The notes beneath the pieces are model-generated. The model had not been told where the DNA came from, ran no database searches, and saw only the letters and a program-made list of their open reading frames with translations. 64,000 nucleotides of DNA from Halichondria panicea. Lineage: Eukaryota > Porifera > Demospongiae > Suberitida > Halichondriidae. The position numbers and the translations under genes are program-made. Positions 12,101-19,130 of the stretch are shown here, in pieces. Position 1 is the stretch's first letter. The number at the start of each line of letters is the position of its first letter. The DNA lies in the NCBI RefSeq assembly GCF_963675165.1, contig NC_087389.1:4572620-4636619 (forward strand), read 5' to 3'.

Positions 12101-15100
12101 TACACCATTACTTGAAAGTTTGTAATTTCAATTGAGCTAGTTTGTGAGACACCACCTTTCAATGTACACATTATTGTGTGTACATTGCTGTTTTCACTTT
12201 ACATGTTTACAGACAGTACAATTGTATAGTGTGTCCATGTAATACGTACACTGTTACAAATGTATACATAATGCAGCCAACATGGTGTGTTTTTGACCTG
12301 AGTGTGTGCTAGGCTGATGTTAGCAGCACCTGTTTATTACAACTACGTACTATTAGTCTGCCAGAGGGTGACCACTATCAGTTATCCTGCCTGATCATAA
12401 AGATGATAGTATTAATTCTTTCTTTGACCTCTTTTGATATTCATGCACTCCTGATATGATATATACAATACTGCCATGTACAGTGTACAGTATAACTGTC
12501 CATGTCCTCACGATCTCAGGGGAGAGCCCAAGACGTGGTACGGTGTGCCTAGTGCTTACGCTGAGTCTCTTGAGGCCACAATGAAGGAACAAGCTCCAGA
12601 GTTGTTTGAGAACCATCCTGACCTCATGCACGATCTGGTCACTACCCTCTCACCCAATGTGCTCATGAAGAATGGAATACCAGTGAGTTGGATTGGGGCT
12701 ACATGTATGTACTCTGTAAATAGAAATAGACTAGTCAAGATTAATAAGTTTGTTATACACATTATAATATATGCAGTGTGTTTTGTATTAATAAATGATG
12801 CTGTATATGGATTGAGAGGAATGAGGAGAACTTGTAATTACCATCTTTCGGGACTGAAAAGAGCACATGTTGATACTACCTATGACAAACTGACCTCTCA
12901 TTTAAATAATACTTCTGTTTATATCCCAGTGGATTTCATAGCACATATACATAATACTGCCCTCATGCACATCAACGCAAGGTCTAATCGTGTAATTATG
13001 CTCTGTGTGTGTGTGTGTGTAGGTGGTGAGGACGGACCAATGTGCAGGAGAGTTTGTGGTGACCTTCCCCAGGGCCTATCACGCCGGGTTCAACCAGGGC
13101 TTCAACTTTGCTGAGGCTGTCAACTTCTCTCTAGCTGACTGGGTGTGTAAGAGTAGAGAGTGTCATGGGTTGGCGAGTGATTGTTCACCCGCTTGAGCAA
13201 AAGTACATTAGGAACCCAACGTTTCACCCACTTGTATGCAAAATCTAAAAGAAACTCTTATAGTTCGTATGTTTGGTTATTTGTTTTCACCATTGTACTT
13301 GCCTGTACAGATATAGCCGTGTTAGTGGCTCTCTGTCACTAGTGGCCTATAGGCTCAGCATTGCCTAATTACCATTTAAATGCTTCCAGTACAGGCTAGT
13401 CGTACGATTCGATTTTATTAAATGTGGTTCCTCCTCATCAGATCTCTATGGGACGTGCCAGTATAGACCACTACCAATCTTTCAATAGAACTCCAGTGTT
13501 CTCACACGATGAACTTATCTGTAAAATGATGGCCACTGCATCGAACCTTGACCTTTGTCTCCTGGCCCCTACTTGTAAGGACGCTGCTTTTATGGTCAAG
13601 AAAGAGATGGACCTTAGGGAGTGCCTTGCTAGCAAGGTGAGTCGTTGTAGATATCGTTAACTGTAGCAGATTACTGATTGTGCCTCAAGCTTAATAATGC
13701 ATTCTGTAGCCCATAATTATAGTGAGAGGTCTATTACTTTATATGTGTAGTGAAAAGATCTCTGACCAGTTGAAATGCATTTTTTGGGTAGTCTCATCTC
13801 AGAGGAAGTACGACACGTGTACAGGCTAAAATTGATCACATGCAACAATGACTTTACTGTTGAATTTTGGATGTGACCAAGCCTAATCGAGGAACTCTGT
13901 GTCGTGTCTGTACCTCCTCTGGTCTAATCTGATCTCCTCTTAGGAATGTCTATCAATGTGATCTACTCAACAATTTACACTATTGTGTGTAGATGGCAAT
14001 GTGGCATGTGTGACTGTGACCTGTGGTGTGGTTGCTTCTGAGCATGCTCAGTACTGCATTTCAGTCACATGGCACAATGTGCCAGCTCCATTTTTATGAA
14101 GAACCCTTTTCTCTGTCTTTGTAGGGCTATACTCGTGAACAACGGGAGCTATTTGAGATTGTGAAGGATGAGGACAGACAGTGCTCAGTATGCAACACCT
14201 ACTGCTTCCTCTCGGCTGTCAAGTGCTTCTGTCAGCAACGTGAGTACAAGTTGGTTGACTTTATACCGCTACCTGGTAGCAAGTAAGCTGTGCTTGTTTG
14301 TTAATAAAACATTGTGATTTTGCGATAGATTGTGGCTTCATTTTTACAGTTACTAGCAGCACACTTGTGTCAAAGGTCGATCTGTACTCATGGTACTCTA
14401 TACCTCCTATACTGCAGGGAAGCTGGCTTGTCCCCGTCACTTTGAGAGGCTATGCGAGTGTCCACCCTCTCAAAAGGTGATCAAGTATCGCTACACCCTC
14501 CCTGAGTTGGAGGGCATGCTCTCCTCACTGGCGGCACAGGCAGCTGCGTACACCTCGTGGGTGGACAGGGTGGAGGCTGTCCTGGACTCTCCTGACAGCA
14601 GCAAGACTGGTGAGTGTGTGTGTGTGTGCATTCAGTGTATTGCATGTTGACTGTTTAATAGTATGTATAGTTTGCGTGTGTTTGCTTGAACACGTACAAA
14701 ACCCCCAAAAATGGCTTTGGTTTAAACCCTGAAGATCAGAGGAAGATAGCCAAGGTCAATTATGCTTCCAGTGGACATTTTAATTGCATTCTGATCGTCT
14801 TTCTTTAGTACCTCCAACCCTTTGGAAATTTCACTGTGGTTAGAGGTAACAAAGAAAAAATAGATAATTATAATGCAATTAAATCCTCGGAATCAGGTTT
14901 TAATTGATGCTGACTATCCTCCTCTGCTGAACATGTGCTGTACCACCAAGGTACAAATCAACCGCCTAGAAAAACTATTGCACCATAATGCCATAAAAGA
15001 ATGTGTGGTATTTTCGCGTGTAAATTGGAGAGCGAGTGTAAACCTCCACGTATGACATGTGTTGTACGTGTACTATATACCTTTCTGTAACTACCTGTGT

Positions 15101-18100: not shown

Positions 18101-19130
18101 CCGTTTAATTGGTAAGAGTATACCCCTTTTATTCCACCACTCCAGGCTCTGTCCTGATCCACTACGAGACTGAGCTGGAGAGACTAACAGCCAAGTATGC
18201 CGGTCTGAACTCAGTTAAACGTTCCACCCTAGACACGCTACTCATGGAGGGAGACTTGTTGGAAGTCAATATGGATGAGGTGCAGCAACTGTGGCAACTC
18301 CTGCAACAAGACGCTCACTTGCTGTCTGCATTTCAGAAGAAAGGAAACATGGAAATTGAGGTACAGGTTTTGTCCAACTACATGTGTTCTCGTTATTAGT
18401 GTCCTCACATAATTGTGTACTGTGCATGTTATAGTGTATAGGTATTGAGAGGAATGAGGAAAATTTTAATTACCATCTTTCGGGACTGAAAGAGCACCAT
18501 GTTGATACTACCTCTGACAAACTGACCTCTCAGTTGGGCTATAAATACCCAAAGCTACTACGTTTTCCAGTGACAATGTACATTAATGTAATAATTTGTC
18601 CCCTCCTGTAGCCATCTGCGGCAGAGGAACAAGACAAGCGAAGACGTCGAAAGAGAAAAGAACTCTCTCCAGCCCTCAGTACGAGCAGCACCACCTCCTC
18701 AGATGCTAAACCACCAGGGATCAAGAAATTGAGACGAAAACCACCAAAAAACAATCCTAAATCTATCAGAAAATCCAGAGCCCAGTCTGCAGGCAGTGCT
18801 AGCTCTAACGATGGTCTCGAGTGCAGTGAGGATGTCGAGGAGGAAGAAGGTGAATGTTCCGCTACAAAATGTCGACAGCCGGTGGCCGAGGAAATATCGT
18901 GGGTGCAGTGTGATTCTTGTCAGGGATGGTTTCACTGCCTATGCGTGGGAGTCACAAAAGAAGTGGCTGAAAAGATCGAGAGCTATTGTTGTATCACTTG
19001 CAAGAGTGGATCCATTCTGAAATCGACACTTCAAAATAGCATCAGCGTTACTACTAGCCCTGGGAAACGAAGGGGTATGCTGGAACTACAACGAGCACTC
19101 CAAAACACTCTATCAAATTCAAAGACTTGA
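6170..19130 (+). CDS. KDM5: KDM5/JARID1 histone H3K4 demethylase, complete, 26 exons
   Basis: Fe(II)/2-oxoglutarate-dependent enzyme removing methyl groups from H3K4me3/me2 in the nucleus. Exons: 6170-6307, 6527-6604, 6712-6771, 7470-7532, 7951-8019, 8669-8773, 9193-9342, 9733-9877, 10238-10620, 10849-11022, 11212-11331, 11602-11664, 11818-12089, 12520-12682, 13023-13142, 13442-13636, 14125-14239, 14418-14609, 15161-15411, 15803-15952, 16110-16318, 16573-16711, 16896-17075, 17311-18016, 18146-18360, 18612-19130. Phases agree throughout and give 1657 residues (human KDM5A is about 1690). Domain order: JmjN ([12 protein letters not shown], residues 2-50), ARID (about 70-165), PHD1 (about 405-455), JmjC, C5HC2 zinc finger (14160-14480), PLU-1 region, PHD2 (about 1265-1320), PHD3 (about 1565-1615). 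Iron ligands are present: His593 and Glu595 in CWHIEDHW and His681 in [10 protein letters not shown], with the family's 88-residue spacing. Exon 6 (ARID) has the least certain 5' border. Codons upstream of 6170 reach a stop without another ATG. Introns 14, 19, 21, 23 and 25 host snoRNAs. Confidence 0.96.
8815..8988. mobile_element. Dispersed MITE (TACAGTGAAACCTGTCTATAG ends), KDM5 intron 6
   Basis: The ends AGTGAAACCTGTCTATAG and CATAGACAGGTTCA are inverted, with GTGGTCACC/GGTGAC inside. Relatives with AGGTCCAAACACA or AGACTTTGGGGCCC cores lie at about 4620-4770 and 5265-5405 (nibrin introns), 7070-7130, 36510-36722 and 38815-38930. Confidence 0.6.
12813..12900 (+). ncRNA. Box C/D snoRNA, SNORD2/snR39b-like, copy 1 (KDM5 intron 14)
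   Basis: Terminal stem TGAGAGG/CCTCTCA encloses a C box (ATGAGGA, one change from RUGAUGA), guide, D' box (CTGA after TTTCGGGA), C' (TGTTGAT) and D box (CTGA). The guide ACCATCTTTCGGG is complementary to the conserved LSU rRNA segment CCCGAAAGAUGGU. The rule of five nucleotides from D' points to the G of CCCG. In this copy the extra CTGA found in the others before the D box is ATGA, which identifies the second CTGA as box D. It lies 122 nt upstream of the next exon. Box motifs and guide are seen; function is inferred from the family. Confidence 0.82.
15633..15719 (+). ncRNA. Box C/D snoRNA, SNORD2/snR39b-like, copy 2 (KDM5 intron 19)
   Basis: Same architecture as the intron 14 copy: stem TGAGAGG/CCTCTCA, C box ATGAGGA, guide ACCATCTTTCGGG, D' CTGA, C' TGTTGAG, D CTGA. 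It ends 83 nt before exon 20, a position typical of splicing-dependent intronic snoRNAs. This is close to a consensus copy, with complete stem and boxes. Confidence 0.85.
16365..16450 (+). ncRNA. Box C/D snoRNA, SNORD2/snR39b-like, copy 3 (KDM5 intron 21)
   Basis: Same stem, C, D', C' and D boxes and the same 28S guide as copy 2. The 3' stem arm is slightly shortened (CCTCTA). It ends 122 nt before exon 22. Confidence 0.82.
17152..17235 (+). ncRNA. Box C/D snoRNA, SNORD2/snR39b-like, copy 4 (KDM5 intron 23), diverged
   Basis: The core CATCTTTCGGGACTGA, C' and D boxes are kept. The guide loses bases at its 5' side (TATATACC instead of TAATTACC), two bases are missing after C', and the 3' stem arm is shortened to CCTCA. 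It ends 75 nt before exon 24. It may be weaker than the other copies. Confidence 0.72.
18446..18533 (+). ncRNA. Box C/D snoRNA, SNORD2/snR39b-like, copy 5 (KDM5 intron 25)
   Basis: Stem TGAGAGG/CCTCTCA, C box ATGAGGA, guide ACCATCTTTCGGG, D' CTGA and D CTGA are all present. C' is TGTTGAT, as in copy 1. One base is lost between C and the guide and one gained before C'. It ends 78 nt before exon 26. Confidence 0.82.

Follow-up and report, generated by a model that had tools for sequence, protein, structure and literature searches.

Five intronic copies of a SNORD96-like box C/D small nucleolar RNA in a sponge KDM5 gene, with a putative second guide directed to 18S ribosomal RNA

Why should a histone demethylase gene carry the same small nucleolar RNA (snoRNA) in five of its introns, and which positions of ribosomal RNA (rRNA) would these copies serve? 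This question is raised by a stretch of 64,000 nucleotides from the sponge Halichondria panicea (assembly GCF_963675165.1, contig NC_087389.1, positions 4,572,620 to 4,636,619 of the forward strand), hereafter called the window, where five copies of a box C/D snoRNA lie inside a KDM5 gene. The explanation that we favor, with a probability of roughly 0.8 judged from the sequence, is that of a double-guide C/D snoRNA in which an old guide at the D' box would have been kept, the guide at the D box would have been re-aimed to 18S rRNA, and the whole unit would have been multiplied by duplication within a single host gene.

It is clear that the five copies share one anatomy. They lie on the forward strand at positions 12813 to 12900 (copy 1), 15633 to 15720 (copy 2), 16365 to 16452 (copy 3), 17152 to 17236 (copy 4), and 18446 to 18533 (copy 5), and measure 83 to 85 nucleotides from one end of the conserved stem to the other. 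In every copy the C box ATGAGGA, the D' box CTGA, the C' box TGTTGA, and the D box CTGA follow in this order between the strands of a terminal stem, of which at least 4 base pairs are formed in each fold. The D' guide ACCATCTTTCGGG, followed by one A and the D' box, gives the same 18 bases in all five copies (16392 to 16409 in copy 3). A search of the window that allowed up to one mismatch located ACCATCTTTCGGG as an exact match at 12840, 15660, 16392, 17179, and 18472 of the forward strand, a count of five against 0.03 expected, which none of 100 shuffles reached. The covariance model built from the five copies scores its own members at 98.7 to 118.6 bits, values that are high by construction, and the next match, on both strands of the window and with no filters applied, at 12.9 bits. 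The original prediction of a five-copy set of intronic box C/D snoRNAs in KDM5 is therefore confirmed by the box anatomy, the exact count of the guide, and the placement in introns, and the boxes that it named are present throughout. The stem TGAGAGG/CCTCTCA that it assigned to all copies holds for copies 1, 2, and 5, where the 3' strand CCTCTCA is complete, but not for copies 3 and 4, where the terminal stem is shortened (CCTCTAA and CCTCAAT, respectively).

The identification of the host as KDM5, also part of that prediction, was upheld by domain pieces and by similarity to KDM5A. All nine of the frames scanned, out of 106 stop-to-stop frames listed, gave JmjN, PHD, JmjC (both parts), KDM5 C-helical, or PLU-1 pieces along positions 6110 to 19130, with the JmjN domain (6200 to 6301, forward strand) close to the gene start; one PLU-1 piece, the last PHD finger, and a PHD_5 match scored slightly under their cut-offs, and the domain search covered domains other than ARID. 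A spliced piece of 261 residues has KDM5A as its closest PDB match (E 8.4e-92). The 3' part of the gene (12520 to 19130, forward strand) is described by a splice model with 13 exons, 12 GT-AG introns, and an open frame, this model being one of eight combinations of exon boundaries that keep the frame open. Five of the 12 introns hold exactly one copy each, in the same gene and on the same strand, namely the introns at 12683 to 13022 (copy 1), 15412 to 15802 (copy 2), 16319 to 16572 (copy 3), 17076 to 17310 (copy 4), and 18361 to 18611 (copy 5), and the copies end 122, 82, 120, 74, and 78 nucleotides before the end of their introns, in this order. In vertebrates, a spacing of about 70 nucleotides to the 3' splice site is reported to favor intronic C/D snoRNAs, and it has also been noted for Drosophila DmSnR60 (PMC1821038); copies 4, 5, and 2 agree with this spacing. 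In the introns that hold copies 3, 4, and 5, the donor sites (16319, 17076, and 18361) read GTGGGT, GTGTGG, and GTACAG, and GTGAGT is the donor in six of the seven introns that are free of copies.

Within the 131.5-Mb assembly, over its stretches free of N, the combination of a SNORD96 model search, exact patterns, and a DNA search found no further copy. The 18 bases of D' guide and box occur five times, all in this KDM5 gene; the SNORD96 model at E 10 (48 of 32074 candidates scored) returned the same five and no others, as did the DNA search with copy 3. A relaxed pattern gave one extra match in the genome, located on another contig, which has TTGA in the place of the box and where Rfam recognizes no snoRNA. 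Outside this genome, the 18-base pattern was not found in viral contigs, and its three single matches in prokaryote genome contigs do not exceed the chance estimate for that search (about 7 in 257 Gb, both strands).

The best Rfam family for the copies is SNORD96 (RF00055, clan CL00072), whose gathering cut-off of 43 bits is reached by three of the five (43.9 bits for copies 3 and 2, and 43.0 for copy 5), with copies 4 and 1 slightly under it at 41.0 and 40.9 bits. The match extends over the whole length, and the consensus of the model carries the D' block CACcAUCUUUCGGGaCUGA and a C' box aUGuUGa. The difference lies on the D side, where the model has CUGcAAUUCUGA, which we take to be a 5.8S guide, and the copies have CUGACAAACUGA, with ACCT ahead of it, which pairs with 18S rRNA. 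SNORD2 (RF01299) was tried as the family and rejected, given that its best score is 23.5 bits against a cut-off of 37. This was the Rfam check proposed along with the label SNORD2/snR39b type in the original prediction, and it turned out against that label; what survives of it is the D' guide, which is that of SNORD2/snR39B, in copies that match the same-clan SNORD96 model in three of five cases. In the genome, at E 10, three of the four SNORD2 matches listed are these copies and the fourth lies on another contig with 22.5 bits; the matches outside KDM5 from the SNORD2 model and from the relaxed pattern belong to no snoRNA family according to Rfam. The table of C/D targets in PMC3511168 holds in one row for the large-subunit (LSU) rRNA Arabidopsis snoR39BY (near RF00055, Gm812), human RF01299 (Gm1509), and yeast SnR39B (RF01299, Gm803). 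This shared row indicates that the target first proposed was right in kind; the family label was wrong.

In all five copies ACCATCTTTCGGG is antisense to CCCGAAAGAUGG of LSU rRNA, as we take those letters to read, and this fits the functional group of snR39B, SNORD2, and snoR39BY. The best pairing of the D' guide with the sponge's own 18S rRNA has 9 Watson-Crick pairs, and that with the readable start of the 28S rRNA has 7, so that no comparable partner exists in these sequences and the candidate is still the site expected in that part of the 28S rRNA which could not be read. The aim at a conserved 28S G is backed by the box anatomy and by Rfam, although the corresponding stretch of the sponge's own 28S rRNA is not readable in the assembly. 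The two ribosomal DNA (rDNA) units, L023 (G000:C2:3816300-3826200) and L024, hold 18S and 5.8S followed by N, which starts about 960 bases past 5.8S in one of them and directly behind 5.8S in the other, and most of the 28S gene cannot be read there.

The snoRNA had been described as having a single guide. This is correct for the D' guide, present in all copies, but it overlooks a D guide that pairs with 18S rRNA in four of the five. The D guide ACCTCTGACAAA, which with the D box CTGA occupies positions 16429 to 16444 of the forward strand in copy 3, is identical in copies 2 to 5 and is antisense to positions 902 to 912 of the sponge's own 18S rRNA. In these four copies the bases 2 to 13 positions upstream of the D box form 11 Watson-Crick pairs and one G-U pair, and U905 of 18S rRNA is the nucleotide singled out by the D+5 rule. 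The target word is present in both of the rDNA units read, which supplied this genome's own 18S and 5.8S genes. The antisense scan took in 18S, 5.8S, and a stretch of about 730 bases regarded as the beginning of 28S; over both strands of the 64-kb window it gave four matches of 11 bases within 0 to 2 nucleotides of a CTGA, all of them at these D boxes, and the D guide with its box occurs four times in the genome, all in this KDM5 gene. The 5.8S rRNA was rejected as a target of the D guide, given that at most 4 Watson-Crick pairs are found in a run through D+5. The D guide complementary to 5.8S that characterizes SNORD96 (CUGCAAUU in the model) is absent from the copies, although the sponge's own 5.8S rRNA keeps GAATTGCAG. 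For a separate 5.8S guide, the genome was searched with one exact pattern, AATTCTGCAATTNNTGA, which alone cannot exclude such a guide; its one match has TTGA as the box, places the key base at D+6, and is no snoRNA according to Rfam. U905 presumably belongs to the helix-23 region in the platform of the small subunit, and its equivalent is not known to be methylated in human or yeast.

The variation among the copies is unevenly distributed. In stem, boxes, and guides 1 of 60 gap-free columns is variable, against 6 of 22 in the spacers (Fisher p 0.0012), in a test that leaves out four indel columns, one of which was set beside the D' box by the aligner. The sole change in a functional part is the D-guide mismatch of copy 1. 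In the spacer between the C and D' boxes, 6 of 12 columns vary. Inside the unit, any two copies agree at between 77 of 85 and 84 of 86 compared positions, with 0 to 3 gap columns; beyond 10 nucleotides outside it, identity is 24 to 35%, similarity being at background within about 10 to 20 nucleotides. Local alignment of the 60-nucleotide flanks gave, for the two sides, 17.2 against 13.0 and 15.3 against 13.0 in shuffles, values that none of 200 shuffles reached; this slight excess may come from shared simple composition (for example TG-rich stretches) or from faded homology. The longest repeat common to both flanks of any copy has 5 nucleotides, and no A-rich tail was seen in the flanks. The copying may have been mediated by RNA inside KDM5; for human C/D families, the authors of PMC8178906 favor recombination inside the host gene. 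After the C' box, copies 1 and 5 carry GATACTACC, copies 2 and 3 carry GAGACTACC, and copy 4 carries GAGATACC, a pattern of sharing that gives a hint of the order in which the duplications may have occurred.

Under the double-guide explanation, and in line with established C/D biology, splicing of the KDM5 pre-mRNA would free the introns, from which the snoRNAs would be trimmed out and assembled with the C/D proteins into a small nucleolar ribonucleoprotein capable of methylation. The D' element would direct 2'-O-methylation to the conserved G of 28S rRNA (G1509 of human in the older numbering), as plant snoR39BY, SNORD2, and yeast snR39B do, and the D element, which serves 5.8S rRNA in plant snoR39BY, would here direct the methylation of U905 in 18S rRNA. 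The five copies would have arisen by duplication inside KDM5, perhaps for dose, and may lift the output from a host other than a ribosomal protein gene. That an LSU/5.8S double guide has swapped its second target, with a D guide that methylates U905 and with both sites dependent on KDM5 transcription, is a tentative proposal, to which we give slightly less than even odds. No gene for this guide was found besides the five copies in KDM5, so that both rRNA modifications would hang on the transcription of KDM5. The gain of a second guide has been proposed elsewhere, for example for Neurospora CD29 (PMC2780460).

Several observations weigh against the double-guide explanation. The C box ATGAGGA is one base away from the consensus, which we take to be RTGATGA, and the z-scores of the single-strand folding energy (0.25, -2.40, 0.05, -0.85, and -1.61) are not clearly unusual in four of the five copies; C/D RNAs need not fold strongly. 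A 20-base pattern for the 28S target, with letters that are again our assumption, was not found with up to one mismatch, the two readable rDNA units running into N inside 28S. The pairing of the D guide has a measurable chance component, given that 28 of 5000 shuffled D guides (about 0.6%) pair as long with 18S and 5.8S, a share that the addition of 28S would raise, and in copy 1 a mismatch reduces the Watson-Crick pairing with 18S rRNA to 7. Both of these points would be expected if only the D' guide works, the D match to 18S being fortuitous or a remnant that recent duplication or homogenisation has kept alike among the copies. The same can be said of Arabidopsis, where Table 1 of PMC8053127 lists no 18S methylation between A801 and A978, roughly the span of the site equivalent to U905 as judged by length. 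Nonetheless, a single guide is unlikely, given that the 11 contiguous pairs have the correct register relative to the D box and that four copies have kept the D guide while half of the columns in the C-D' spacer vary. The distance of copies 1 and 3 from the 3' splice site (122 and 120 nucleotides) is a further point of this kind and, together with the shortened terminal stems of copies 3 and 4 and the altered D guide of copy 1, it would suit a set of decaying duplicates, with one or two active members and the rest relics. This is doubtful to a similar degree, given that every box and the full D' guide are kept in all five copies.

Two other explanations concern the presence of the copies in KDM5 itself. 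The loss of similarity so close to the ends of the copies looks as if the RNA unit alone had been copied, as would be the case if the copies were a dispersed retroelement of the snoRNA kind (snoRT family) and sat in KDM5 by chance. This origin was rejected on the genome searches, where every copy found belongs to this one gene and has one orientation, and on the flank tests, with their short repeats and lack of an A-rich tail, and we consider it highly improbable. Still less credible is a functional coupling, in which selection would have favored KDM5 as the host in order that the expression of the demethylase and the methylation of rRNA vary together. A link between the histone demethylase and rRNA modification was part of the original prediction, and co-location is all that speaks for it; snoRNA hosts change in evolution and mainly need broad expression, as described in PMC3511168, and in most human C/D families with several expressed members these sit in a single host gene (PMC8178906), which leaves the link unsupported.

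Elsewhere in the window, positions 45635 to 45709 form a near-perfect hairpin (-46.5 kcal/mol, z -8) with a weak Rfam match to mir-556 (34.4 bits, cut-off 84). Apart from its own locus, which is matched on both strands, the genome has at least 39 further partial matches to it (40 of 332 candidates scored), which suggests a dispersed inverted-repeat element and not a microRNA gene. Downstream of KDM5, the reverse strand holds a convergent open frame with an NRF1 DNA-binding domain at 21936 to 23327 (Pfam PF10491, E 5.6e-91). Upstream of KDM5, also on the reverse strand, a stop-to-stop frame of 547 residues at 131 to 1774 has no Pfam match at E 0.001.

The arrangement of several copies in one host is of a known kind. 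Cis-duplicated snoRNAs within one host have been described in chicken (PMC2653536), Drosophila (PMC1821038), sponges (PMC3412847), and human (PMC8178906), and for 59.5% of the human C/D families that have several expressed members, a single host gene carries them (PMC8178906). The new parts may be the 18S target and the host. Among the open PMC papers listed, taken without the supplementary tables of PMC3412847 and the six further conserved orthologs of its Fig. S2, none was found that places snoRNAs in KDM5 or describes this one from a sponge. The record of cis-duplicated snoRNA hosts gains a chromatin gene that is not ribosomal. If the D guide works, the locus would clearly exemplify a double-guide snoRNA of deep conservation with one target kept and the other changed, and it predicts a specific methylation of 18S rRNA; otherwise, the copies are routine annotation that the gene models of Halichondria panicea should carry.

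With SNORD2 and yeast snR39B (RF01299) the sponge copies share the LSU target group, but they do not reach that model, have another host, and are five in number; the chicken cognate of SNORD2 lies in intron 3 of EIF4A2 (PMC2653536). Arabidopsis snoR39BY has both the LSU target group and the two-guide design in common with them (PMC8053127, PMC3511168). SnoR39BYa targets 25S G814 and 5.8S G79; methylation at these two sites is strongly reduced in the mutant hid1, which disrupts its cluster (PMC8053127). Its second target is thus in 5.8S and its gene in a polycistronic cluster, whereas the second target here would be in 18S and the copies are intronic in a protein gene. The snoRNAs of the sponge Suberites show the same cis-duplication within one host gene, but in neighboring introns, in ribosomal protein genes, and with other snoRNAs (PMC3412847). 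A precedent for the arrangement is found in Drosophila, where DmSnR60 a-d are four double-guide C/D copies placed one per intron (6 to 9) in mfl, about 70 nucleotides from the 3' splice site (PMC1821038). They differ in belonging to another snoRNA family and in having a pseudouridine synthase gene as host; Me28S-G1083, which was considered as a member of the same family as the sponge copies, is snR60 and serves as precedent for the arrangement only. For DmSnR60, methylation has been seen at both predicted sites (PMC1821038).

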